Assembly: GCF_040954645.1 (NCBI RefSeq)
Contig: NC_092804.1
Coordinates: 42,127,753-42,191,752, forward strand
Reading direction: 5' to 3'
Origin: Diabrotica undecimpunctata
Taxonomy: Eukaryota; Arthropoda; Insecta; Coleoptera; Chrysomelidae
Length of the DNA stretch: 64,000 nucleotides
Both the position numbers and the translations under genes were made by a program. Under the pieces are notes generated by a model. It ran no database searches. It saw only the letters and a list, made by a program, of their open reading frames with translations, and was not told where the DNA came from. Positions 6,156 to 50,700 of this stretch are shown piece after piece. Every line of letters begins with the position of its first letter. The stretch's first letter is position 1.

Positions 6156-6199
6156 TATCAAAGAATATAGACGCTTATAAGCGTCTATATTCTTTGATA
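6156..6199. repeat. Perfect 44-bp palindrome
   Basis: The sequence reads TATCAAAGAATATAGACGCT, then TATA-centred, then its exact reverse complement; the symmetry point is 6177/6178 and every base pairs. There is no spacer, so it can extrude as a cruciform or form a 22-bp RNA stem. No larger inverted repeat continues on either side (G at both 6155 and 6200). Confidence 0.95.
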
Positions 6200-10817: not shown

Positions 10818-12233
10818 AAGGAAGAGTTTTTTGTGTACCAGCAATGGAGGTTTCCAAAATATCAAACTTAGAAAATGTGTTTACATTTTTTGCTTAGTTT
10901 CGAGATTACCTAGACGATTAGGCATTAGACAACATTGTATAGTCGTAAAACCTACATATGAACAGATGATCTTTGATGAAAACATAGGAAAATTCTTATG
11001 CAGCTTATTAGATTCTCAAATATGAATACTAAGGAATGTCACAATATGGAATCAAAACAATCAATTTATTTCATTTAATTCCATCTTGACACAGTGTGTT
11101 ACACTTTCTAAATCTATATTTAGCTTCAATTTAAATTAATGTAATTTGAATCTAAAAATACGACGTAATAAACAGGATGGAGGTCTATCTGTTTGATTGT
11201 TAAATTGCTATGTCGTTAACGTTTTTTGTGTTGATATTTAATTGATGCAAACACTGATGGTCTCATGTTCAATGGAATGCACTCTTACAGGGCAAGCTCA
11301 ATGTTTTAGCAGCCTGAATTCAATATATTTTGGATTTTAATTTAGAATTAAAACACACTGTCTTTAATATTAAGTTAAAAATAGACATTACTATCTAAAA
11401 ATAAATTATATAATTAACAAAATTGAATTTATTATTATACTAGAATATTTTAAATTTTATACAGTAATATAAAGATTCCAGTGTGAATCAGTAGTTGTGC
11501 GATTTTATTTACTGTTTTTTTTATAATTTTTCATTTTTCCTCTACAATATACTCTTCTCGCATCCCTACGTTGCTCCATGCAAATCTACTGTGCGAATTG
11601 AATCAGTGCTCAACTTGTGGCAGACTGTGGAGTAGTTGTGCAGATTTTTGTTTTATGTTCTCTCGTGACTTGTGGTGGATTCCTTTCAAACAGAATTTGA
11701 TTTTTGGAATATATAGAATATGCAGGGTGTTAAATCTGACGAATATTGTAGGTGTCCCATAACTGTGACCTGGTTTTTGGCTAAATACTCCTTGAGTTAA
11801 GGTCTTGTGTACAAATAGAGTGCTTGTTGTCGTGATGGAGGATCTAGGCGTTTCCTCATTTTGTGCATCTTTTTGCAATTTTTTTCACGGAGTCTTTATA
11901 AAACCTCTAAATAGTAATATCTATGAACTGTCTTACCTGGTGGTACCCATAGATGAACTACACCCTAGATATTGAAGAAATAATTAACATCGCATTGAAC
12001 TTGAATATTTAGTGACTATCAACATTTAGCAAGTATGCCTACTGTTGTAATATGAACTACAGTAGCAGAGGTTTTAAAATTGGTCCACTTAATTTGGTCT
12101 TGAAAATATCCCAAAAAAAAAATAATAATTTAACTTTCATATGCTCATTTGTTTGGTTATCATATGCCCCCCTTCTTTTATACTATTTTCTGAGGTATAA
12201 TGGAACGGGATATAATGGATAAATTTTAGGAAC
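10818..12233. other. No gene recognised
   Basis: Open frames at 10771-11025 (84 codons) and around 11571-11878 on both strands match no family I know. Composition is otherwise A+T-rich intergenic. Confidence 0.4.
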
Positions 12234-12670
12234 GGCAATATGTATCACTATTGCCATAAAGTTAGTAGTTTTTTATATTTAACATGTTCAAGCCAAATAA
12301 TTAGTAAAGACAGTTTCAAGTATGTTTAAATTTTAACAGCAGAAAAACAGTATTAATTATTTAAAAAAAAAATAGTTTAATTAAGATGCCCAAAGTGCAT
12401 TAATAAGCCAACCTTAAGGCGGCGCCAGATATGCGGTATTTGGTAAATACTGAACAAGTGCTTGTTATTTGCCTATTAGTGTGGACGGGTCCGTACGTTG
12501 TCGGTCTTTTCAACACTTCAAAGTAAACAAATATTCGCCGTTTGAATATTTTTATTTACATCCACTTATTCGTGCAAGCATAAGTAAGTTTTTGAGTGGT
12601 TAAAGTTTATATCGTTTATTAAAGTAGTTTTTTCCATAGCTAATGTTAAAGTGTTGCTATAACAAGTGTT

Positions 12671-12745
12671 TTGAGTAGATAAAGTATCACTTTAACGCAA
12701 GGGAAGATAAAGTGACACTTTAACAGCAAGAGTAGATAAAATGTT
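12671..12745. repeat. GATAAAGT palindrome cluster, left of the recombinase gene
   Basis: Two short palindromes, TAAAGTATCACTTTA (12680-12694) and TAAAGTGACACTTTA (12708-12722), are each preceded by a GA dinucleotide; GATAAAATG follows at 12734-12742. They lie just beyond the 3' end of the recombinase gene. Similar motifs reappear beyond its 5' side (13973-14085). Paired short inverted repeats are what a tyrosine recombinase could bind; function is inferred. Confidence 0.6.
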
Positions 12746-12787
12746 TGAACTTTTTTTTATTCAATAAAATTTACAAATTCAAACACA

Positions 12788-13760
12788 TTAAGGATTAAAA
12801 ACAACTGAAATTTTACAATTAACATTATTAGAAATATCTATTTTTGGAGCATCACAACTTGTACTTGTTTGCTTAAACACTTGATTCGAGGTACTGGATT
12901 GATTTTCTGGTCCGCTAAGTATACACTTGGATACAGCAATCTTATTGCTTGTTGACTCTTCAATGTAAGATACTGCAACAATGCCCCGTGTACATTTCTG
13001 AATTTGCAAGTTTCAAAAAATCTGCAATCTTCTTGGGGATATTATATATAGTGTTAATCCCCACCGGTTGAGTAGTGCACTTTTGCTGTCGGTAATTTAC
13101 AAAAAACTTACTGTGAGGTACGTTTTTTGGGCGCAAGGCAATATACTTTCTCACAATTTCCAAGAAACTCAGTCCACTTTTCTTCTCAGTAATACAAAGC
13201 GACCTTTCCTGTTTGGTTTTAGTATCAGATAATGAAACGATTATCATCGATTTTCTGTCGTCCACGTTAAACACTTCTAACTTGTACAATTCATCGGACC
13301 TAGTCGCTCCATGCACACCAAAAATAGCAATAACCTTCATCAACAAATAGACGTCATCAGGAGCTTCTGTCAGAAATTTAATAATGTCATCTGACTCCAG
13401 GATTTTGGACTTTTTAGCTTTGTATCCTCCACTCAGGTTTTTTAGTAAGGTGGTTAACTTGCTGAATTTAGAAATGTCACAATTTTCATTCACCAACAAC
13501 GTACGCTTCAGAATCGAATAATACGACCATAATGACGATGGCATCGCTTTCTTCGACTTTTCAGAAAAATACGCCAGAAGTATTTTTTCACACACGCCAT
13601 TGATATTTTTAATGCTTTTCCACTTTTTAAAAGACTGGTATTCTTTCTCATACATCATTCTAGATTTGTGTGCCCACAATAAACTTTCTGCTTCCAACGC
13701 TGCATTTTCTACATCTGATGGCAGGTTTTCCTTTTCTTGTGTCAATTCTTTTCCGTCCAT
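12788..13760 (-). pseudogene. Crypton-like tyrosine recombinase, active-site deletion
   Basis: The open frame extends up to 13880 but the better start is Met at 13760 (MDGKELTQEKENLPSDVEN). An N-terminal helical DNA-binding half (KSRMMYEKEYQSFKKW) leads to the catalytic half. The first catalytic arginine is in GVHGATRSDELYKL, and a beta-hairpin lysine lies in SDTKTKQERSLCI. Family blocks ALRPKNVPHSKFF and QPVGINTIYNIP are intact. After MYTGH the frame shifts directly into VAVSYIEES, which contains the candidate nucleophilic tyrosine. About 35-40 residues that normally hold the HxxR motif and the H/W box are missing. The enzyme would cut and rejoin DNA at short sites; this copy cannot. Downstream the second frame stops at 12788. 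Confidence 0.85.
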
Positions 13761-13972
13761 TTCGTATTTATTTACTTTGTACACAAAACGCAACAATATT
13801 CTCCGCAAAAACCAAAACGTAACATTTGTTTGACATTTGTTGACAAAGTAATTCATATCCCTAGCAACGGAGCAACACAATTGCGATTCTTGTGCTAAAA
13901 ATTATAATTTTCTTTGAAATTCTATTTTTCTCCTGAACTTGAAGTCTTGCTATAGAAAAAAATGTTGTATTG

Positions 13973-14085
13973 CACACGACGATAAAATCGCATTATCTTC
14001 TCGAGCATAATTAGCGGCTCGACTGATGTCTGGACGCTAAAAAACGCTCTCGAAGATAAAGTACAATTTTATCGTCTTGTACAAT
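13973..14085. repeat. Inverted repeat of ~35-bp arms with GATAAA motifs, upstream of the recombinase gene
   Basis: GACGATAAAATCGCATTATC at 13978 and the reverse complement of 14046-14080 (GACGATAAAATTGTACTTTA) pair, and pairing continues into TCTTCTCGAGC / TCTTCGAGAGC. The spacer is about 40 bp. The GATAAA(A/G)T core is the one found at 12671-12745. This could be a recombinase end site or a promoter hairpin. Confidence 0.6.
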
Positions 14086-14104
14086 AAATAACTATTAGTT
14101 ATTG

Positions 14105-14672
14105 TCACAGAGTGTAGAAAATACTGAAAATAGTAAATATGGAGTGGACCAATGGAAATATTTTACAATTTTTGGATGCATATGAAAATAAACCTGAATA
14201 CGAATCTTTTATGCCAGGGCACTCATTTGCTGGAATTGCATTTCTCCACTTTGTATTTTTCTTACTAATTATTGGTCGCACTTTAGAAAGTAGATAAGTA
14301 AAATCTTCACTGGACATTCGACAAAAATTTTGAAATTTTCCAGATAGTTCTTTTAGCAGATCTGCCAATAAGTTTGTGCCACTGTACCTAAATCCTATTA
14401 TCTTGTTACGTACATGTAAATAAAACATTCTGGCATTTTAATACTTACCGTTGTCTACTTTGATTATCTGACACCATCCACCATCTTATCCTTCTTCTTG
14501 GCTTTTTTTTGCTATTTAATAATAAACTTCTACCAGACATAATGACAAAAGCAGCTGAATTTAAAATAAGCTCTGTATCACTATCCATTCTGTATCTTAT
14601 TTGCTCAGTTAGAATATATTTGTTGTTCTCATAGTGACTCGATACACGAAAAATCTCGAATATGTGGTGCAA
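14105..14672 (-). pseudogene. PIF/Harbinger transposase, N-terminal fragment
   Basis: Two frames, separated by a shift near 14430-14445, give the start of a HARBI1-type nuclease. The first reads SKKKPRRRIRWWMV, and the second GTNLLADLLKELSGKFQNF then CRMSSEDFTYLLSKVRPIIS then KKNTKWRNAIPANE. The usual LTLRFLATG segment after the last motif is deleted, and the frame jumps to DSYSGLFSYASK and ends at 14105. No catalytic DDE block is present. It sits at the right end of the TTA-flanked element 12417-14773. Confidence 0.85.
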
Positions 14673-14789
14673 CGTGCTTGCCGTTTAACGAACACTTTAA
14701 CAAGCACTCAAATATTTGATATTTAGCAAGCACTGTTCAGTGTTTGCTAAATACCGCATACCTGGCGCCGCCTTTACATGTATACGTGT

Positions 14790-15000
14790 TAATGTTGCCG
14801 AGAGGGGGCATTTGGGCCTGTAGGACCCATCGCCGGCTCTTCGGGCTTCTTCCTATCCCCGGAATTGGATCGGGTATTCACCATCTTTGGTTTGTCGCTG
14901 GTAGAAAGGTTAAATGCTACCGCTGTTATAAATAACAGTTCCAGTGACAAATATCTGTTATAGGTAACGGTTCCAAGGAACAGTTACAAAGTAACAGAGC
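14790..15000. other. G+C-richer patch followed by short perfect hairpins
   Basis: Bases 14800-14900 are clearly more G+C-rich than their surroundings. From 14922 come small stem-loops: CTGTTATAAATAACAG (14922-14937), CTGTTATAGGTAACGG (14954-14969, one mismatch), GGTTCCAAGGAACA (14968-14981) and CAGTTACAAAGTAACAG (14981-14997). They lead straight into the array at 15031. Confidence 0.6.
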
Positions 15001-15030
15001 AAAAATGGAAAACAGATAGGTAAAAATGAT

Positions 15031-15832
15031 CTAAGTATTCCTTGACTTACGGAAGGAATAACTTAGTAAACAATTAAATTAAATGGTATAAAAATATAAT
15101 GCAAAGAAAAAAATGTTTCTAAGTGTTTCTTGACTTACGGAAGAAACAACTTAGGACAGAAATATAGATAAATGAAATATGTAAATGTGAGAGTAAAATA
15201 TGGAAATATTTCTAAGTGTTTCTTAACTTACGGAAGAAACGACTTAGAGTGGAAAAATAAAATACTCAAAATATAAAACGTGAAATGCAAAAAAAATGAA
15301 ACAGATTATAGAAATATGTCTAAGTGTTTCTTGACTTACGGAAGAAACAACTTAGAATAGAAAATAAACAAGAGAATCAAATAAATGCACAAATATTTAT
15401 AAGTGTTTCTTGACTTACGGAAGAAACGACTTATAAAAGAAAATAAGAAAAATCAAATATAGAAAAGATGTGAAAATATTGCTAAGTGTTTCTTGACTTA
15501 CGGAAGAAACAACTTAGCATAAAAGAGAAAATGAAAGAAACAAATGTATTAAGTATTTTCTTAACTTAAGAAAGAAAATATCTTAGATAAAATATCGGAA
15601 ATAATAATGCAACAATGATTATGAAAATATTTCTAAGAGTTCTTTGACTTACCGGAAAAGAACGGCTTAGACAAACAATTAAAATAACAAGTCAAATATT
15701 CAGAGAAATATTTCTAAGAGTTCTTTGACTTACCGGAAAGAACTACTTAGACAAAGTACAAATCAAAATATAAAATAGAAAAAGCAAGATAAATATTTCT
15801 AAGTGTTCTTAACTTACGGAAGAACAACTTAG
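15031..15832. repeat. Array of ten imperfect 34-38 nt palindromes with co-varying arms
   Basis: Units start at 15031, 15119, 15212, 15320, 15399, 15482, 15549, 15633, 15714 and 15799, spacing 67-108 bp. A typical unit has arms CTAAGTGTTTCTT and AAGAAACAACTTAG around loop GACTTACGG, giving 13 base pairs with one bulged base. Arms change together: ATTCCTT/AAGGAAT in unit 1, GTTCTTT/AAAGAAC in units 8 and 9, GTGTTCTT/AAGAACA in unit 10, ATTTTCTT/AAGAAAAT in unit 7, and a C-G to A-T end pair in unit 5. The loop is nearly constant, while spacers are A-rich and not conserved. Structure rather than arm sequence appears to be kept. Confidence 0.95.
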
Positions 15833-16059
15833 ACACAAAATACAAGAAAAATAAACAATCAAAATAACCAATTAAAATATCAAACAATCAGTATATGAAC
15901 AAATATAGATCAAAATAATATTCTAACCTGAAAAGGTCTGAATATACAATAATGCTAAAATAAAAATGGTATATAAGAAATCAGAAATAAAACAATAACT
16001 TAGTAGGAACAATAATAGCACCGACTAGGTCTACAGTAGAAGAGGCAAGCTCGACTGAC

Positions 16060-16285
16060 CGATGAGGGAAAATCTACCTGCTTTTATGTAAAACAAATCC
16101 TTTGTTTTACGTAGCGAAAGTGGAATTTCCCTGCATCGAATCAATTAGAAATTTGGATTTGGTCAACCTTGGAATTCCCAAGTATTTTAACCGATATCCA
16201 AATTCCTTGATGCGTCGAGGACATTAATAGATGCAGACAAGCCACATCATGTAAGCTCTAGAAGTTTATTCTAGAGCTGTATTCT
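16060..16285. repeat. Cluster of stem-loops downstream of the array
   Basis: Three structures are visible. GTAAAACAAA/TTTGTTTTAC lies within an outer GATGAGGGAAA/TTTCCCTGCATC stem (about 16060-16139). GAAATTTGGAT/ATCCAAATTCC lies with TCGA-ended outer pairs (about 16136-16220). AGCTCTAGAA/TTCTAGAGCT is at 16255-16279. Together with the array this makes 14.9-16.3 kb unusually rich in potential secondary structure. Confidence 0.7.
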
Positions 16286-16497
16286 AGAATTCAAGCAAAG
16301 GTTGCCTTATTACCAGGAAGTGAGGAGATTTTAATTTGAGCATCTTATTTAAACGATTTTTAGTTAAATAATAAATACTTTTGCCTCTGCTGTTAAAAGT
16401 TAAATAGTTTTTTGAAACTGACCAACTAATTATTTGACTTTTAGCACCTTGTATAAGAAAAACTACTAAATTTAGGGCAATAGTAACACATATTGCC

Positions 16498-16915
16498 TTT
16501 CATAATTTATAATTTATAAATACATATTACCCTTTCAGACTTTATATAGTGATATATCAAATGTAGTCATGAATTCCTGCATGATGTAAAAATGCTTCGT
16601 TAAACCTAAGTCTATTGAGAACTGTTATCTCGAGTTTTCTGTATAGCTCTATGAAAGGGAAGGAAACCTTTGAACTATGGGTTATGTAATAATATGTACT
16701 GCAATAAACGAAATGGAACAAGAAATAGAACAGGAAAGAACACCACCTTTAAAATCACATTTATCTTATCCACCCGGAATATTCTATGAGAACTATAAGT
16801 TATAACCTGTTTCAAATGGTAATGTAAAGAAGAGTATAACGAAGAAAGAGTTGTGGCATGAGATGAAAATATAAAAGATCTCACTAAAGAACAAAAATTT
16901 AAATATATATGTTTC
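16498..16915. other. No gene recognised
   Basis: A+T-rich spacer right of the long-TIR element; nothing identifiable. Confidence 0.45.
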
Positions 16916-18799: not shown

Positions 18800-19500
18800 T
18801 CCTGTGCATATTAAACCTAGAACTAAGATTAATACTATTACAAGAATTAATATTAAGCTCAACAGCCTTCCGGATTGAACCGCGTCGATTATCATTGTGC
18901 CGAGCTTTCGACATCTTCTTTAATGTCTTCTTCAGGGTTTCCGAGGTCTCAGTCTCCGGAGCCCCAAATACTACTACACTGATAACTTTATGAACAGAGT
19001 ACGGTTCATTTATACCGTAGATGGTGACGCGGTTTGGGTGGAGCTGGGCGTGGGGATTGGCGCGAGTATTGGCGCGGGGTTGGCGCGAATATTTCTGACA
19101 GTAGGATTTTGATTGTCGGGTGGAGAAGACGATATTTTCTTTATGAAAGGTCTCCATGTCGAAGGTAACCGTATGCCGTCATCCCTTTTATTGAGACAAT
19201 TTATTTTTTTTTTCAATTTCTATGGCTTCTCGGATAATTCTTGGTTTATAGAAACGGATTCGGGCTATGGTTTTGGAGTTTTCAAAATCAATTTTGTGAC
19301 CAGTATGAAGATGGTGTTGACCTAGAGCTGAAATTGAGTCGGAATTGCGAACAGAAATGGAATGTTCATAAATCCTATTTTGGATTCTACGATTTGTTTG
19401 GCCTATATAGGATCGCTGGCAGTCTGCACAAGGAATTTCATAAATTCCGTGTGCATAGACGCAAACCAATCAGAACATAACAGATTTGCAAGTCTGGTCT
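18800..19500 (-). pseudogene. Penelope-like element, GIY-YIG endonuclease end
   Basis: The minus-strand frame at 19469-19188 begins VCVYAHGIYEIPCADCQRS and continues YIGQTNRRIQNRIYEHS, the GIY-YIG nuclease core with its CxxC-type zinc pair as found at the C-terminus of Penelope-like polymerases. Next comes LPSTWRPFIKK, and after a frameshift SEALKK-type text (ETETSETLKKTLKKMSKARH). The reverse transcriptase part upstream is absent apart from about ten codons (VKTRLANLLCS). The nuclease would nick the target DNA for priming. Frameshifts make this copy inactive. Confidence 0.85.
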
Positions 19501-20117: not shown

Positions 20118-23100
20118 GTAAGTTAAAACCATTTTTATGTAAAGGAACAGATAAAAAGATAGATTTTCATGCATCACAAATTATAAAAGCTGCGAGAAGC
20201 AGTTGTGGCCTCTTATATCAATGTAGTAGTATCGTTAATGCAGTTTAAAAGTAGACGGCTGTAAGCAATGGCCTCTGAAATATGTGAATCAATGTTTGAT
20301 TCTCACAGCCTGAAAAGTGAGTTCTAACGTAGTACCCACAATCAGTTCAATTCCTAACTTTCTATACCACTTTACTCCTTTTCTCAATGAAGTGGTGTAT
20401 GTATTCATTTGGTCAGACAGATCGGTGTATGTTTTATGTTTATTTTAGTCAGTTACAACTTTTGGTTTTGCCTGCCTTCTTGAGTTCGGCAGTGTGTTTT
20501 GTATTTAGAGTATAAACATCGCATTTTTCTTTCATTTTTGAATCACCACTCCTGTATTACTTTCAGCTGCAACTGTTGGTCCTAATTTGCAATTTTGTAT
20601 CTTTGTATCTTTTGCAGAATATCCAGCTAACTCAATATTCCTCCCCGGAGGAAACCACGAAGTGGTTGTCCCTGAACAGATTCGAAAAGTACTTGGACAC
20701 ATTCGAAAGATTTTCAGGAGATGATATGTTCAGGATGTCCAGAGAAGATCTTATTCAAATTTGTGGCAGTGCCGACGGCATTCGCTTGCACAACGCAATT
20801 CATTTGAAGTAAGTAGGAAATATCTATATAATTTAAATCGTGATTTACGCATTTAAAATAAGTAAATAAAATAAATTTAAAGGAATATTCATTTTTTGTG
20901 TAAAAAGGACAGTAAAGATTTGACTAGATTTAGTCCAGCTAGAATAAAATGTGTTAAAGTCGATTATATCTTCTTCAAAAATGCGATCTATCCATTAAGA
21001 ACGGGTGTCCATTAATTTTCGCAGTGTTTTATTCATAATCCTTGGGGTTGCTGCATGGAACAGTTTACTACCAATCTTTGTCACAGCGCACTGTCATAAT
21101 ATTGTTTATTTTTTTTATTTACAAACTCGCATCAGCCATATGGCATTAGCAAAAGAAAAAAATATTAGGATCCATAGAATAGTACAACAATCAAATTTTG
21201 TACAAATAGTTTATTGCTTTTAAATATTGAGTAATCACTTTAGCACCACACTTCAGGAATAGTCCTTTCAAATTCTCCGAGATTCCGAATTCACCTCTTT
21301 CCGCACTATGTAACGGGCACTCCACTAGAAGGTGTTTTATTGTTAGCGGGGTCTCGCAAGCATAACACTCAAGTTGGGGATCTCGTGTCATCAGATGTCC
21401 TTCATAAGGCAACTATAAGCTAGCCGCAGTTGCGTGATGATCACCACGATTGATAGAACTGTCAGACCATGGTTGAAATGGTGATTTTATCTCAAATAAT
21501 TTCGCCTGTTTTTTTGTGCCATCTGCTGCATATTCATCTGTCGGATCGTTTCTCGTGATTCCAATATGAGATGGCACCCACTGGAAAGCAATGTTTGTGT
21601 GATTTATATTGTGCAATTCTTATCTAATGAGTTTGGCAACAATGTAGGCAGATATTTTAGACATGATTTCTAGAGAATTTAGTGAGTCTGTAATTAGGAA
21701 ATTATTTCAGAACTTACTGTAATGTCACATATGGCTTTATATATTAATGCACAATGTTCCGTTTGACATCTATCGCTAAATAACGGTTTGATATTTAGAA
21801 TTAATTAAATGACGATTGGATTCTTTCTTATTTTCTGACAACAGATCTAAGTTTATCTGAGGAGAAGATATTAGCCAAGGAGGGGGAGTTGACATCTTGC
21901 TAGGACCGATTTCGGGGACCTTAAGGTTTAATTCATTTATGATTCTTCTGCATCTTTTATAAAAGGGAATGTGGGTTTTTTCGTTCTAAATATTTGAGGA
22001 GCGAATGATTTGGTGACATTGTAAAGAGTACCGCTTCGCTGCATATGAGGGTATTAATTCCTGTCTTCTTAATTATAATGGTAGTTCACCGAGTTCGGCC
22101 TCAAGACTTATGATAGGAGTTGTTCTAAATGAACCGCATATTATACTAAGAGCGTTACTTTGAATGGTGTCTAAAATTTGGAGTTGTTGTTGAAGCAGAC
22201 GAGTATGCATGACATCCACATTCGATCTTGTAGCAGATTAGATTTTTATATAATGTGAGTAGAGTTCTACCGTCCGCTCCCCAGTTCGTACCAGAAAGGT
22301 ATTTCAAGAGGTTTAGTATTGTTTGACATATTGCTGAAATATATTTGATGGGACCATTCCAGGTTAAAGATTGATCAAATATTAAACCTAGATATTTAAT
22401 TGGTTTTACATATTCAAGTCTCCCAAGTTTTAAAGTAGGTATTTCCTTTATCTGCTGTGGTCTCTTTGAGAATATGATGCAGCGAGTTTTACATGAAGCA
22501 AATTGAAAACCACTTCTTTTAGAACTTGCTATAGATTTATCGAATTGATCTTGTAGTAAAACTTTGCCATGCTCTGTATATTGTTTCCCTTTAAGAATAT
22601 TATAAGATCATCCGCGTTCAATCTTGCATTTCATTGATTCGATTATATCGTTAATAGCTATAAGGGAAAGCGTTGGGCTAATTACCGAGCCTTAATGTGT
22701 GCCATTTTTTTTTGATATACACTATATATACATTACTTACTTTTACATTGAAATTTTTATTTAGGAGAAAATTTTTAATAAAAGCATTATTAATATGTGT
22801 TTCTATATCTACTAAATTGTCGGTGGTTGATTGTCTAATCCTCAGAAGTGGGAGATGGAAATATTTTGTGTTAAGGAAAAATCAGACTTTGTATTGTCAA
22901 TCCAGGCATTTTCGATTATCTCAAAATTCGTAGGGGTATTGAGAGGCTGAGAGAGGGATGGGTTTGACAGTTCTGGATTTTGTGTCGAAGATGGTTCAGA
23001 CATATCTTTGGGTACGTTTTGTTTTATTTGCGAGCTGTGTATGATTGTGTGCTGATTGTGAGCTGTTGGAAGAAGAAGCTGTAGTGATTCCAGCAATAGG

Positions 23101-25935
23101 AGTTTGTGGAGTTTGGGCAAGAGATTTGTTACTGATTGAGTATTGCTTACTGAAGATAATATATACAAAGGTAAATGAGGCAGTGCAATTTGAAATGTCC
23201 TGCTTGCTTGCTTTTGAAACAATTATGGCTGTCTAATGTTAAAAATAGCCTGTTTAATACTCCATCTTGTTCTATTTCAATAAATTTAGGAATGTATGTA
23301 TTTACAGGAGAAGAAATGCAGATTTTTCTTCTCAAACTTAATATGTGTCTAAGCTGGATCAGTAGCTCCAATTCCCAGTGGAGTCATTGGCGATAACAAT
23401 GTTAAGCCCAAATTTTGTAAATGTCATGTTATACCCTCATTAGGAATTGTCGAGTTTACATTAGATACTAGCAATCTTTCTGATGGGGCAATTAATCGCC
23501 GAGCAACTAGACGAGTGTTGTTAATTGTGATGGCTACATTATTTTTAAGAAGATCGTCGACAAACATTTTATCTCTCAAATATATGCAAACTCAATTGTT
23601 AGATGTATGTGAACAATATATTATATTTTGCAACCATCTATCGATGTAAAAACTATAGCTTAATTTCTATTTGGTAATGGAGTGGAGTTTTGAGCGAATG
23701 CTGCTTAGTATGATTTAAATGTGCTGTTGACATTCTGTGAAGTAATATTGACATTTAAAGAACTTTAAATAAGATTATCCATTTTTTGCTTTCTTTCTGA
23801 GTTTCTTCCAAATCATTTAAACTAAGTTCGCCTCTGACGATGAAAAACCACAGTTGATAGTGGGAGATGGTCGACTTAGTTGATAATGCGAGAAAAAAAG
23901 AAATCAGTTGATAGATAATCACCCACAACAGGTGAATGGAATGATGTTATTGATTTTTGTTGATGTTATTAGTATTATGATGTAAATTAAATACTCGCAA
24001 ATCAGATGTTATGTAATATTTTGACACTTCACTTTTTTCCAAATTTAGTTAGAATATAATAATTATAAACTCGTTAATATTAAAAATCAATTATTACTAA
24101 TGATCGTGTTTACTCTTCGAAGGTTCGAACGAGACTCCAATATTGTTTTTATGGACATTTTTATTGTATGTATCCTCTCCCGGTTACCGATTGTTTTTGA
24201 TCTTTAGTGTGTCGTATATTTCTGCTTCTGTCATCTCGTGATACATCGTCAGATCTTTGGTTTTGTACTGTTTCCATGTTGTGCCATTTTTATCTGGTTA
24301 GAAAACTTTGGTAGTGGTATAATTCTTATACAATTTGAATTAGTCTCTCTGTTTGATATTGGCGACCACGTTTCTAAAAGTTTCTCTGTCATTAGCAGCG
24401 TGGAATAATTCTTCTACATCCATATTTGTCCAGTCTCGAATTATTCGCAGTCATGGCTTTTTCTTTCTACCTATTCCCATTTTCCCATCTACTCTACCTT
24501 GCATGATGACCTGCAATATACTGTATTTTTCATTCCGTCATATTGAATTTCATATTGTTCTAAACATTTTTTTTCTCGACCTATCCTTCTCACCACTTCT
24601 TAGATGATGACTGACCGTCCAGGAATTTAGCATTCTCCGGTATATCCAAAGTTCAAAGCCTTCGACCTTCTTAATTGTGTGCGTTTTTAACGTCCATGTT
24701 TTCATCCCGTACAGTAGTTGGGGCCAGATATAACATTTAGCAAACCTCAGTCTTAGCGCAGTATTAAGATTTCTGTCATATAATAATAGTCTAGCGTTCA
24801 TTAAAATACAGCGACTTAGATGGGCCGGACACATAATACGAATGTCTGACAACATGATTGCTAAACAGCTAACGACAGGATCACCTATAGGAAGAAGAAG
24901 CAGAGGCTGACCGCGAATTATGTGGTTAGATGGAGTTGAGACAGATTTAGGGATACTGGAGATCAGAAGATGGCAACACTTTGCCAGAAAACGAACAGAA
25001 TACCGAATAATCTTAGAGCAGGCCAGGATCCACAGAGGATAGTCGAGCCAAAGATGATGAATAATAGCCTGGATTTTAAGAACGCTGTTTTTGCTATTTT
25101 TATTCATATCCCGATCTCCTGGTCTAGATACAATTCGGAGTTCATGTATGCTCCCAGATATTTATAGGACGTTTCAATATTATCATCGGCTGAGTCTTAT
25201 CAAAGTTAATGCCAAGTTTCATTTGGATGAATTCACTTTTTACTGCATCTAGTAAAGTTCGTAGCCCTTCCATAATTAGCGTCTCGTCAGTAAATCATAT
25301 GGTGTTTATTATTTTGCTGCCAATTCTCATTCCTGCTGTTCGTTCCCATAAGGCTTCTCTGAAGATGACGTATGAGTATACGTTGGAAAGCGTCGGAGAC
25401 AAGACGGATCATTGCCTGACTCCTCTCCCAATCAATATACTCGTATTATTGGTTTCTACCTCGTTCTCCTTTACGCTTTCTGATTCCAATATGATTTTAA
25501 TGTCTTTTTTGTCTAAATTGATGTTTTTTAGTTTGTCTATGTATATACTATACTCTATACTTATACTTTCTGTCTTTGAATTTGAATATTTCTTTTTTGT
25601 CATTTACATATTTTGGATATACACTCATTTATTTATTTTTTTGCAGAATGATTGCACCAAAATTGAAAATCTACGTATGTCGAGAAAACTCCTCAATCTT
25701 TAATGCCATCTTCTTGACATCTCATAGCAATGAAGAACTTATACTAAAGCTTTCGGCATTCATAGGAATGTCGCAAAATCAAATACGTGACGTCTATTTG
25801 GAAGGACCTCAATCGATCCATATTCAGTTAAATAATGATGTTTTGGAGCACATCAAGGAAGAAACGATGTTTTCCGTACAAGTTATTTCACAGGAAAGTG
25901 GTTATGTATTACTGCTTAAGCGGAAAAACAGATAG
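19994..25935 (+). CDS. gem: TFCP2/UBP1-type (CP2, gemini) transcription factor, three 3' coding exons
   Basis: Three exons join in phase: 19994-20117, 20618-20808 and 25647-25935, each with AG before and GT after. They encode a Ser/Pro-containing linker, a SAM-like oligomerisation domain (TTKWLSLNRFEKYLDTFERF, then SREDLIQICGSADGIRLHNA) and the C-terminal ubiquitin-like fold (APKLKIYVCREN to EGPQSIHIQLNNDV), ending RKNR-stop. CP2 factors bind DNA through an immunoglobulin-like domain encoded further 5', which is not in the window; the SAM-like region mediates assembly. The protein acts in the nucleus. The 4.8-kb last intron is filled by retrotransposon debris on the opposite strand. AATAAA at 26383-26388 may end the transcript. 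Grainyhead-type proteins are related, but the closer match is to the TFCP2 branch. Confidence 0.88.
20618..20808 (+). CDS. gem: CP2 factor exon: SAM-like domain
   Basis: Acceptor TTTTGCAG ends at 20617; donor GTAAGT starts at 20809. The exon begins NIQLTQYSSPEETTKWL and contains the family signature FSGDDMFRMSREDLIQICG followed by ADGIRLHNAIHLK. It ends two bases into a Lys codon, completed by the first base at 25647. Confidence 0.92.
21191..23640 (-). pseudogene. jockey-like non-LTR retrotransposon, decayed ORF1 to RNase H
   Basis: Read on the minus strand, parts appear in element order. A gag-like ORF1 lies at about 23400-22842 with one zinc-knuckle remnant (KQAGHFKLHC) and a Ser/Thr/Asn/Pro-rich segment. 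Next come reverse transcriptase pieces: LRIRQSTTDNLVDIETHINN near 22840-22760, GSVISPTLSLIAINDIIESM near 22690, and a broken YADD region near 22600. GRLEYVKPIKYLGLIFDQSL follows near 22420-22370, then the RNase H end FQWVPSHIGITRNDPTDEYA at 21590-21530 and a terminal CPLH segment (TIKHLLVECPLHSAERG). Many frameshifts and a deletion in the palm leave no function. It lies in the last intron of the CP2 gene. Confidence 0.8.
23641..24355. other. CP2 gene intron, nothing recognised
   Basis: A+T-rich; no TE or exon motif seen. Confidence 0.4.
24356..25600 (-). pseudogene. RTE-like non-LTR element, decayed, split by an opposite-strand fragment
   Basis: The minus strand starts near 25600 with KLKNINLDKKDIKIILESES (after motif A) and GRGVRQ-stop-SVLSPTLSNVYS (motif B). 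A mutated motif C, FTDETLI, stands where FADD-type text belongs. The thumb is cut by plus-strand DNA at 24806-25072 and resumes with RNLNTALRLRFAKCYIWPQL then VEGFELWIYRRMLNSW, ending with DWTNMDVEELFHAANDRETF near 24380. Stops and shifts are scattered throughout. Confidence 0.8.
24806..25072 (+). pseudogene. RTE-like 3' fragment inserted in reverse inside another copy
   Basis: The plus strand reads KIQRLRWAGHIIRMSDNMIA, then LTTGSPIGRRSRG-stop-PRIMWLDGVE, then RWQHFARKRTEYRIILEQAR. This is the C-terminal tail of a non-LTR pol of a different subfamily from the minus-strand element around it. The minus-strand element resumes on both sides, so this is a later insertion or an inversion. Confidence 0.75.
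25647..25935 (+). CDS. gem: CP2 factor terminal coding exon: ubiquitin-like C-terminus
   Basis: Acceptor TTTTTTTGCAG ends at 25646. The frame gives KMIAPKLKIYVCRENSSIF, then LSAFIGMSQNQIRDVYLEGP, then MFSVQVISQESGYVLLLKRK and a TAG at 25933-25935. The length (96 codons) and motif order match the C-terminal domain of TFCP2-family proteins. Confidence 0.9.
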
Positions 25936-31090: not shown

Positions 31091-32377
31091 TCTATCTATA
31101 TAAAAGGCTAGGACGACAACTCGCACTGTTTGTCCGGTACGATAACTTCTAGCTCCACATAGGAAAGAAAACTGAACTACTAACTGACATTTCAATCAAA
31201 TTTTGTTCTTGAAACGACACGGTTGATTTATTGCTAATTCATTCTAAAAATTAATGATTCAAATATTTTTGGGTGTTTTGTGGTGGGGGTAGAATATTTC
31301 TTGGGGACATATGATACATAATTGAAAAGGAGATAGGTAGCGAATATGTTAGACCGAAAAAACACATGGCGGCACTGCCTAGAGGTCTTTACATCATATC
31401 TCCGTTTTTATTGGTCAGATTGGAGCGTGTGACATGTTAAATGAAAGGAGAACGTATGACGAATATTTTAAGATAGAAAAAACAAGGCGATTACCAAAAG
31501 GGCACTACCAGCATCTTCGTTATTAATTAACATCTAGCGACATTAGAGATATACGGCACTATGGATAAAAATAGGTTAACTAAAGGACAAATCTTGATTT
31601 ATTGACTTAAAGAAGGCTTCTTGCTGAATACAAAATAAACAACTGATCGAATCCTAACATACAACATAGCAAATGAAAGGGGAGTATATAACGAATATAT
31701 TAAGATAGAAAAAATAAACAAGACGACTAATAAAAGCGCATTACACAGGATCTTCATTATTAATGAATGTATAGCGACATACGAGAAATCATAGGACACT
31801 GGATAAAAATAGATTTGCTATAAAACAAATTTGGATGTATTGACTTAAGAATGCTGACTGAGTACAAAATAAACAACTGATCGAATCCTAACATACGACA
31901 TAGCAAATGAAAGGGGATGAGATAACGAATGTATTAAGATAAAAAAACAAACAAGGCGATTACCAAAACGGCATTACACAGCATCTTCGTTATTAATGAA
32001 CGTATAGTGACATACAAGATATCACATGACACTATGGATAATAATAGATACACTATAAGGCAAATTTGCTTGATTGACCCAAAGAAGGCCTCTGACTGAG
32101 TACAAAATAAACAACTAGCCGAATCCTAGCATATGACACGTCAAATCCAACGACGTGAGACGTATAGTACATACAATATAGTATATAGCGTGCCATCAAA
32201 AAATATATATGTACAGGATATAGTAAAAAAACATGATGTCAGGTTAGAAGAATACCAGATAATACTTTATAATTACTTGGTTTACATGCAAGAAGTATAT
32301 TATTTTAAAAATTTAATGAGTGATTGTAGATGGCAACTGATTGGATCCCCCGTAGCATGCGACGGGCAAAATACTAG
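31091..32377 (+). mobile_element. Non-autonomous Helitron
   Basis: The element begins TCTATCTATATAAAAGG after an A (31090) and ends CTAG at 32374-32377 before a T, so it sits in an AT target without duplication. Seven bases before the CTAG lies a hairpin: CCCGT (32349-32353) pairs with ACGGG (32362-32366) around AGCATGCG. A 5' TC, a 3' hairpin, CTAG and AT insertion are the standard Helitron marks. There is no Rep/helicase frame. Most of the interior is a tandem array. Confidence 0.85.
31321..32150 (+). repeat. Tandem repeat, ~234-bp unit, inside the Helitron
   Basis: AAATGAAAGG marks unit starts at 31438, 31671 and 31905 (periods 233 and 234). Each unit repeats GCATCTTCGTTATTAAT-like, AAAATAAACAACTGATCGAA and TCCTAACATA blocks in order. 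A diverged copy precedes (from about 31321) and the last breaks off near 32150, giving about 3.5 copies. Confidence 0.88.
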
Positions 32378-47700: not shown

Positions 47701-50700
47701 CCTCAAGTTACGCAACCATGAGATTCTTCTTCTTCCTACACTTCTCTTGCCCTGGATTTTCCCTTGTATAATCAATTGAAGTAGCCTATCCTGCCTACCC
47801 CCAAAAGCCGCCACTGCGGGACAGTTATTTCGCGTACCCGGACAGTTGTTTCGCTTCTGTCCTATCTACTAAAATCGTTTCTATACACATTTTATTCCAC
47901 ATTTCTTAATTTCTGACACGGTCTAATAATGTAACTTAACAATATTTTCTATAAAACTGTTTTAAATGTAATAATTTTTTTTTGTTCTCTTCTGATAATG
48001 TCCACCCTTCTCCTCCGTATGTTGCAGTGCTTTCTACCAACGATCTGAATAACTTTTTCTTCGATTAATTTGACAAACTTTTATTATGTATTGGGAAAAG
48101 TAACTTTCTTGTTATAGCTTTAATTCTTCCTATTTTCATTTAACTGAAATCCTTAGTATCAGTAATCCTCTTAAGTGGGCAGAAATATTTACAGAGATGT
48201 ATGTATTTCTGCCCACTTCTGGGGAGAATTTTTTTCTGTATGTGTGAATTCTTGTTATTGTCAGAGATATTTATTAGTGAAAAGCCTAACTTTATAAGTT
48301 GCGTAATATAGGCGCTATAAAACAAAAACGGAATTTGTCGATCAGCCCACTGTATCTCGAGCCGACGACGCCGGCGTGAAGGGTCAAGAGTAAAACACAC
48401 TGCTTATTATCCATTGAGTTAGAATCTAGATTCTAACTCGATGATATTATCGTATCGCGAAAAGGAATTGCTTCTGTTTACACTTGTTGTTACGCTAGGT
48501 GAGGTGTAATTCTAATTTTAGTAATAAATGACATATATTAGTACAATATTTCGAAGTTCGTGCTAATGTGCAGATATTTTAAAATATAAAATATAAAAAA
48601 TTTTTATTTTTTTTTACAATAAGTTACTTACCTATAGCTATATGCTCGGCACGTAAATTTGGTAGATGTCAAACATTCCACTTGACAATCTACAATAGAA
48701 TTTGCCTTCAATGAGTCTCTAACAATTTTTTGATGTAACCGTTCACCACTCCTGACTCGCCAAAAGCAATCTAAAAAGTTATTAGATTTTTAATGAAATT
48801 TATTTTTGTTATATACAGTAATCATGCAAATATCAGGAATAAATTCATTATTTCAGAATCGGACGACTTAAAAAAATCTTACACGTAAATTTCAATTTTT
48901 TAATGGCCATCAATTGCTATATATTATGTGTTGGACATTGCGTCATAAATGTTGGCGTAATAAAGTAATTAAAGATTTTTTAAATACAAATGGAGGTCAC
49001 GGGACACCTCATTTGAAAGGTCTGCTAATCGTCTTTGCAACGATGTATCATTCAAATATTTATTTCTACGGGGTTAACCAAACTTACAGTAAATACTCAT
49101 TCACTAAACTAAATTATACTACGAACCTCCACTGCGAATAAAACAAAGATGTGTTTTTTGCTGGTTCTGAAAAAAGAAATACATTGATTGATATAAATGC
49201 TACATTCTAATTTGAAATTAATTATTGGAGTATCAGTCAAGTATTCAAAGTTATTTTCACAAAAATATTTAAATCAGTATTGTCATTGATTGGTCGTTAT
49301 TGTCAATGATCTATACATTGGACAACTAATAGACGTACAATTTTTACTGTTTAAGTTTTTTACGACATATTTTTTAATTGCATATACTATTGCCGACAAT
49401 AATAACAGGATGAAACAAGATTGGTTGTGGAAATAAACTGAGGACTTAGGCTGAAGTTCGTAATTTATTTTATGCTAAATAACCCAATCGCGATTTCTCA
49501 ATTAACAATTAGCAAAATTGACAAAAGAATTGATAAAGGGGCCATATTGGAGATCTCCTCAGAAGCCGTATAAAATCCATACCCCAAGCCAAGAAAATCC
49601 CCATACCAGTTTGAGGCAGGTCGCACTAGATAATAATGTCCACCAATCATGGACGTATCCACCAATCAACTATTGTTAGAGTGCTAAAAAAAGAAGAAGT
49701 GGCATCCGTACAATGTACATCTGGTCCAGGAGCTTTTAAAAGATGACTTTGATAGAAAAATCGAATTCTGCGAAACCATTATTGAACGACGTAACAGGGA
49801 TCAGAGTTTCATAGAAAAGGTACCTTTTTCAGATGAAGCCACTTTTATGCTTAACGGTCACGTAAACCGCCAGACATCGATACTGTGCAAGTGAAAGCCA
49901 GAACAATATCCTGAGAAGGAAATGTTTGGACCGGCATTATCTTCTTCTTCTTAAAGTGCCCTCTCCTCAATGGAGGTTGGCTACTACAATTTTAAAATCT
50001 TCTCTATCTTCAGCTGTTCTTATTAGCTGTTCAAAATTTAGCCATGTCCATTGTCGGATGTTTCTGAGCCACCATAGTCTTTTCCTTCCTAGGCCTCTCT
50101 TTCCCTCGATTTTTCCTTTCACTATACGTTGGGCATATTGGTACTTATTATTTCTCAGTATGTGGCCTAGGTATGATGTTTTTCTAACTTTTACTGTGTT
50201 AAAAAGTTCTCTTTCCTTGCCTATTCTATGCAGCACTTCTTCGTTTGAGGTATGCGATGTCCATGAAATTTTGAGCATTCTCCGGTAGATCCACATTTCA
50301 AAGGCCTCCAATTTATTTACGGTTGATATTACCGGCATTATAAACAATCATATTATAGGGCTATATTTTTTTGGGGAAAACTGAACTGCTCCTCGTTATC
50401 TGTCATTTTTTCAGGATTATCTAATGCTACAGCTGAATTAGCTATTTCCAAATAGAAATGATCTGTGGGAAACAAATGGGGGTCTCCTACGATACGGCAT
50501 TGAGGTACAAGATAACTTAAAATAAATTTTCTCAGGTAGGTAGATAGGTAGAAGGGAATCTATCGAATGGCCACCGAGGTCTCCAGATTCGACTTGGTTA
50601 GACTTTTTTATGGGGATATTTGAAAAGAAAGTGTGTCAAAGTTGATCGCATAATGTAGAAGAGTTGAACGAGCGCATCGGAAAGGAAATTGAAAAATAAC

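Follow-up and report, generated by a model that had tools for sequence, protein, structure and literature searches.

The genome of Diabrotica undecimpunctata carries a row of ten imperfect palindromes, which raises the question of whether these units have been kept for their letters or for the shape into which they fold, and what sort of element would carry them. We analysed the palindromes together with the rest of the 64,000 nucleotides of contig NC_092804.1 in which they lie (the window). An earlier note on this DNA had described them as short palindromes with a near-constant loop, matched changes in the arms and unconserved spacers. The two arms of the stems vary in concert around a nearly invariant loop, which suggests that the folded shape matters. 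Coordinates of the array and of the features around it are collected in Table 1.

Table 1. Features of the hairpin array and its surroundings, in positions of the window
Feature	Position	Strand	Basis
Left arm of bracketing inverted repeat	12211-12394	+	Alignment with right arm; weaker similarity on to 12415
Harbinger-like insertion (putative)	12417-14773		Terminal inverted repeats, 45/51 columns alike; TTA at 12414-12416 and 14774-14776
Structured left flank of array	14777-15030	+	RNA fold of 14776-15030
Eight-base 5′ flank, first copy (diverged)	15023-15030	+	Consensus AAATATTT; listing and information content
Array of ten hairpin units	15031-15832	+	Individual folds, pair counts, covariance model
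Hairpin units 1-5	15031-15066, 15119-15154, 15212-15247, 15320-15355, 15399-15434	+	
Hairpin units 6-10	15482-15517, 15549-15586, 15633-15670, 15714-15750, 15799-15832	+	
A-rich, T-poor spacers and A-rich tail	15067-16010	+	Composition; spacers not alignable
Structured right flank with several hairpins	16011-16297	+	Fold of 15833-16330 as one piece
Right arm of bracketing inverted repeat	16335-16518	-	Alignment with left arm; weaker similarity on to 16298

The listing and the individual folds bear out ten palindromes of 34-38 nt at intervals of 67-108 bp, as previously claimed. All ten lie in the same orientation, with start-to-start spacings of 88, 93, 108, 79, 83, 67, 84, 81 and 85 bp. Each folds alone into a stem of 12-13 bp, made up of an outer stem of 4-6 bp and an inner stem of 6-9 bp, which is closed by a loop of 9-11 nt and carries an extra base on its 3′ side. 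Folding energies of single units range from -7.8 to -11.9 kcal/mol as RNA and from -6.1 to -7.4 kcal/mol as DNA, in the same shape. The most frequent form is CTAAGT-GTTTCTT-GACTTACGG-AAGAAAC-A-ACTTAG. The loop reads GACTTACGG in five of the ten units, AACTTACGG in two, GACTTACCGG in two and AACTTAAGA in one, and its core ACTTA is present in all ten, in agreement with the near-constant loop described before. The extra base between outer and inner stem is likewise found in 10/10 units (in unit 8 as one base against two). Arm pairs that had been singled out, such as ATTCCTT/AAGGAAT and GTTCTTT/AAAGAAC, are present, as is the change of the terminal C-G pair to A-T in unit 5. Unmatched changes also occur, as an A/GG internal loop in unit 8 and as an outermost T.G pair with a one-pair register shift in unit 7.

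No other such unit was found in the window. An exact-arm hairpin scan, with settings picked after the array had been seen, returned ten matches, namely nine array units (unit 7 was missed) and an unrelated palindrome at 6159. A covariance model run without filters scored the ten units at 44.5-64.2 bits, with 12.2 bits for the next best place in the window, and found the same ten units again on the minus strand at 16.8-26.9 bits. Neither this model nor self-comparison of the window revealed a second copy of the array.

Letters and pairing are retained in the units, while the intervening spacers have lost alignability. Mean likeness among the palindromes is 84%; among the nine spacers, taken without their last 8 bases, it is 54.5% vs 53.0% (sd 6.8) for shuffled spacers, and the spacers are thus as unconserved as had been claimed. 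The limit between conserved unit and spacer is sharp on the 3′ side. Directly 5′ of the unit stands AAATATTT, which is exact in five of the ten cases (units 3, 5, 8, 9 and 10) and has at most one mismatch in eight; this partly conserved flank and the constant bulge are absent from the earlier note and are added here. Within the unit, the kept letters are those of the loop core, the loop-adjacent stem pairs and most of the outer arms, and the middle of the stem keeps pairing alone. The nine spacers (439 nt) are 58% A and 24% T, and the tail after the last unit (15833-16010) is 57% A and 22% T. The AT skew of 15001-15900 amounts to 0.31; since it is equalled near 44 kb (0.34), in sequence that is retroelement-like by eye, skew alone is no proof of a past as RNA.

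Pairing was assessed on an alignment of the ten units comprising 8 distinct rows, 13 pairs and 102 cells. Standard pairs fill 97.1% of the 102 cells, vs 43-67% in six slid versions of the alignment and a mean of 90.8% in shuffled ones. Eight of the 13 pairs are invariant, four have changed on both sides and one departs through unpaired cells alone; a T.G is the single wobble pair in the 102 cells. In three measures (paired cells, cells altered on both sides, covariation score) the observed value was reached by 0/500 shuffles and by no slid version, to be read with the proviso that kinship among sequences can make them exceed such shuffles. On the other hand, 9/500 shuffles reached the count of pairs changed on both sides (4), and 480/500 reached that of further pair types, which at 5 does not exceed the shuffled level (mean 6.1). 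By eye, matched events number about eight. Unit 1 has two, units 5 and 7 have one each, unit 10 has a paired deletion, and three are common to units 8 and 9, the third of them fully valid in unit 9 only. Two or three places lack a standard pair. The matched arm changes reported earlier therefore stand, although units 7 and 8 also hold unmatched places.

The spacer comparison and a simulation of decay were added because related sequences may exceed shuffles. The simulation applied unconstrained substitution to ten copies (130 pairs) in 4000 runs and treated the units as independent, which they are not. At 6% per site, a mean of 12.4 of the 130 pairs was broken, and three or fewer were broken in 0.25% of the 4000 runs. 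With 7% substitution, a run had on average 0.28 pairs altered on both sides, and 0/4000 runs had seven or more. The rate of 6% is half of the divergence between the ends of a nested insertion (45/51 columns alike), which is later than the bracketed element because it sits inside that element. The decay argument hinges on the assumed age, since at 3% the mean falls to 6.4 broken pairs and three or fewer are broken in 12% of runs. Pair statistics, spacer comparison and simulation together support the earlier structural inference that pairing and loop were kept while the spacers were free to change.

The context of the array, absent from the earlier note, consists of a bracketing inverted repeat, a nested transposon and structured flanks. 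The two arms of this repeat, one taken as its reverse complement, are identical in 147/189 columns (78%), and their local alignment score of 157 compares with a maximum of 34 among 290 random pairs of 350-base stretches; self-comparison likewise matches 16335-16398 to 12331-12394 in reverse. The repeat encloses both the hairpin array and the nested insertion, and we infer that it marks the ends of a transposon. Alternatively, the arms may be two opposed copies of another repeat. They are disfavoured as separate hairpin MITEs because they fold no better than usual (z 0.3 to -1.6). Around the outer ends, which are not sharply defined, no target-site duplication was seen by eye.

The nested insertion, which we take to be Harbinger-like, is so named from its terminal repeats, the TTA on either side and a protein fragment at 14108-14437 (-) recognised by eye; a Pfam search of this fragment found nothing. 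Pfam relates an ORF at 12963-13901 (-) within the insertion to phage integrase, though below threshold (18.5 bits against a cut-off of 27.1; E 0.0018). This ORF, weakly tyrosine-recombinase-like, perhaps belongs to a presumed Crypton-like element nested in the Harbinger-like one. By subtraction of the insertion, the outer element measures 1948 bp, with the array in its middle, and no coding sequence was recognised in that part. Because the inverted repeat brackets array and insertion alike, the array seems to be the inner part of an old element of ~1.95 kb that is apparently non-autonomous. Tandem arrays inside transposons are already known.

Both flanks of the array fold more stably than shuffled sequence. 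The RNA fold of 14776-15030 has a z of -3.89, with 0/200 shuffles equally stable; that of 15833-16330 has a z of -6.15 on the plus strand and -4.34 on the minus strand, with 0/100 equally stable shuffles on either. Among 798 segments of 160 nt on the plus strand, 26 have a z below -3.2 and 11 of these start at 14881-16081; some segments outside the array region fold lower still (2641: z -10.96). The right flank fold includes two long imperfect hairpins, at 16055-16140 and 16145-16215. Strongly folding stretches at 2481-2960 (z to -10.96) are perhaps MITE-like hairpins.

When 15001-15900 is folded whole, the mean pair probability of the units is 0.79 on the plus strand and 0.80 on the minus strand. 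Unit 8 hardly forms its isolated structure in this context (0.03 on +, 0.01 on -), and unit 7 reaches 0.31 on +. Shuffled spacers give 0.76 (sd 0.10), as good as the real ones; the value falls to 0.72 (sd 0.13) with spacers composed like the window and to 0.62 (sd 0.11) with T-rich spacers. Folding in context was rejected as a means of picking the transcribed strand, as it shows no strand preference.

A TFCP2 protein used as query hit two exons on the plus strand, one for the SAM domain at 20639-20800 (E 2e-14; Pfam SAM_3, E 4e-21) and one for the C terminus at 25615-25920 (E 2e-8); the CP2-domain part of the query had no match better than E about 1 within the window. On the strength of these exons, the array is probably located within a long intron of a TFCP2/gemini-like gene that runs in the plus direction.

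The earlier note had drawn a parallel with viral hr-type sequences, which gained no support in our searches. Three pattern scans of IMG/VR returned 1, 21 and 9 loci (31 in all), with one match in each. The covariance model, run on all 31, matched 24 at E up to 1, each partially and at the searched word alone, and found no full unit in any; in one of these loci (L001), the 601 bases around the match contain no hairpin array. A 21-base pattern of the unit gave 0 matches in prokaryote contigs. A viral origin was not supported by the four pattern scans (three of IMG/VR, one of prokaryotes), which gave no viral or prokaryotic relative and may omit records from the genome of the window itself or from a near one. 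By eye, the ORFs of at least 95 residues in the window comprise transposon and host fragments and no recognised viral gene, and Pfam found nothing viral in eight proteins of the window except the weak phage-integrase match in the transposon-like ORF.

Rfam gave 0 matches in the window at gathering score; with E up to 5 allowed, it gave three in 14700-16600, the best at E 0.018 and each well short of the gathering score. One weak match, at 16124-16168 (-), is to an astrovirus frameshift element (21.2 bits vs a gathering score of 70); most of the hairpin is absent, and the match is probably due to chance. A tRNA search returned none. Insertion of each hairpin as a mini-element was rejected for want of a consistent target-site duplication, the longest flanking repeat being 0-7 bases per unit with shifts allowed, in A-rich sequence. 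We found no description of this hairpin unit in the literature searched. Papers on insect lncRNAs with tandem hairpins or on U1 decoys, judged by title and the opening of the abstract, offered no fit besides the one on roX.

Several known systems share part of this organization. The best functional parallel is offered by the roX RNAs of Drosophila: according to PMC4719309, the lncRNAs roX1 and roX2 carry a short motif in several stem-loops within ~500 bases, are otherwise little conserved and function in correlation with repeat number. Unlike roX, the array lies in a transposon-like element and has ten nearly equal units, whose constant motif is in the loop. In also joining inverted repeats to a short tandem array without coding sequence, the present element resembles the Tetris foldback element, whose monomers of ~220 bp lie inside the terminal repeats (PMC4079207), and the Helentron HINEs, with monomers of mostly 140-180 bp in oyster (PMC7492417); the conserved unit here, in contrast, is ~44 nt long and hairpin-forming, and its spacers are unconserved. 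According to PMC3116915, bacterial REP/REPIN palindromes are similarly short, show compensatory changes and at times stand in tandem arrays, but they are RAYT-linked and present in hundreds of copies per genome, whereas the array is one ten-unit cluster in the window searched.

We tentatively favour a reading in which the array forms a module within an old transposon and its hairpins are docking sites read in folded form, probably as RNA. The element would be old, apparently non-autonomous and equipped with long terminal inverted repeats, and would sit in an intron. Its ten hairpins would be repeated docking sites recognised when folded, through letters in the outer arms and in the constant loop with its ACTTA core; mid-stem positions would require pairing alone, and the A-rich spacers would keep the hairpins apart. 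Most likely they would act in a transcript, as a multivalent RNA platform resembling the roX stem-loops. Such a platform would imply folding in vivo, a binder and the choice of one transcribed strand.

Kept letters in loop and outer arms, next to a mid-stem that keeps only its pairing, are what one would expect if the hairpin is recognised as such. A docking platform is further favoured because the matched arm changes outrun shuffles in three of five measures, because the hairpins are alike and the spacers are not, with a sharp 3′ boundary, because unconstrained decay at 6-7% predicts more breaks and fewer double changes, and because both flanks fold better than shuffles. The single orientation, the asymmetric bulge and the one-strand A-richness of the spacers lead us to lean towards RNA. 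Against the platform stand the further pair types at shuffled level, the double-changed pairs met by 9/500 shuffles, real spacers that help folding no more than shuffled ones, and the fact that neither a second copy in the window nor, by eye, an outer target-site duplication was seen. The RNA reading in particular is weakened by a single T.G in 102 cells, fewer than expected from stepwise change in an RNA, by the about equal folding of both strands and by the poor formation of units 7 and 8 in context.

Another account, which we regard as somewhat unlikely, is mutation without function. Local tandem duplication followed by replication template switching, which copies arm onto arm, would let a single event produce matched changes, with no selection acting on the folded molecule. 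PMC8794818 proposes that hairpin stems arise and are maintained by template switching, through one-event multi-base compensatory changes, and regards maintenance as backed by circumstantial evidence. The one wobble, the few one-sided states and the inner stems common to neighbouring units (8 with 9; 2 to 6) all suit this account. Template switching alone, however, leaves the constant loop and outer-arm letters beside unalignable spacers unexplained, an objection that is weakened if A-rich spacers diverge fast through slippage; moreover, stem-perfecting events should tend to erase the extra 3′ base, yet 10/10 units keep it.

One G.T pair in 102 cells is also consistent with a DNA-level element, in which palindromic protein sites or cruciform-prone sites would serve as enhancer, insulator or replication origin in the manner of hr. 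AT-rich imperfect palindromes of ~36 bp at a spacing of ~80 bp argue for it, and precedent comes from the similarly AT-rich, imperfect and similarly sized hr palindromes of AcMNPV, which according to PMC6669502 are 30 bp long, bind IE-1 and act as enhancers and origins. The period given for hr in the earlier note (~30 bp palindromes in ~70 bp repeats) is matched by 34-38 nt at 67-108 bp. We nevertheless consider this reading unlikely. Unlike baculovirus hr, the array has matched arm changes, which are needless for a dimeric DNA site, a constant bulge and one-strand A-richness, both left unexplained, and no recognised viral genes; spacings of 67 to 108 bp fit, by eye, no helical repeat, and hr cruciforms form only if the palindromes are made perfect, per evidence cited in PMC6669502. 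More doubtful still is host use after insertion, with the array retained as an intronic regulator of the TFCP2-like gene. The likely intronic place, from the SAM and C-terminal exons on the plus strand, points in this direction. So does the pairing in the array, which has decayed less than the bracketing repeat and the nested insertion have at their ends, a comparison that is only suggestive, since those ends may never have been identical.

A cluster kept in shape with a constant loop would, if true, make this a mobile element equipped with a structured, multivalent platform for docking. Neighbouring sister units have freely evolving spacers between them that serve as an internal control, and the same matched changes, if found in copies elsewhere in the genome or in related species, would offer a natural test of hairpin selection vs template-switch mutation.

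ACTTAC, which occurs in nine of the ten loops and 16 times elsewhere in the window on the plus strand, is the complement of the splice-donor core GTAAGT and thereby recalls U1 and donor sites. Conceivably, yet very improbably, the loops present this complement (+) or a donor-like GTAAGT (-) and so bind U1 or hide donor sites, as a multivalent U1 platform; if true, the transcript of the element would be shielded from premature polyadenylation or held on chromatin. The likeness was noticed after the fact and is taken as a lead only.

The roX box has the consensus GTTNTACG. It is found in none of the ten units; on the plus strand of the window GTTNTACG occurs four times and CGTANAAC twice, the nearest at 16104. 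There, within the right-flank hairpin at 16055-16140, GTTTTACG is roX-box-like, which could easily be chance. Elsewhere in the window, a GIY-YIG-like fragment at 19191-19469 (-), a sub-threshold Pfam match, possibly derives from a Penelope-like retroelement, a 234-bp tandem repeat spans 31439-32133 in three copies with 80% matching, and a further stretch at 48081-48320 folds strongly (z -6.76 and -6.44).
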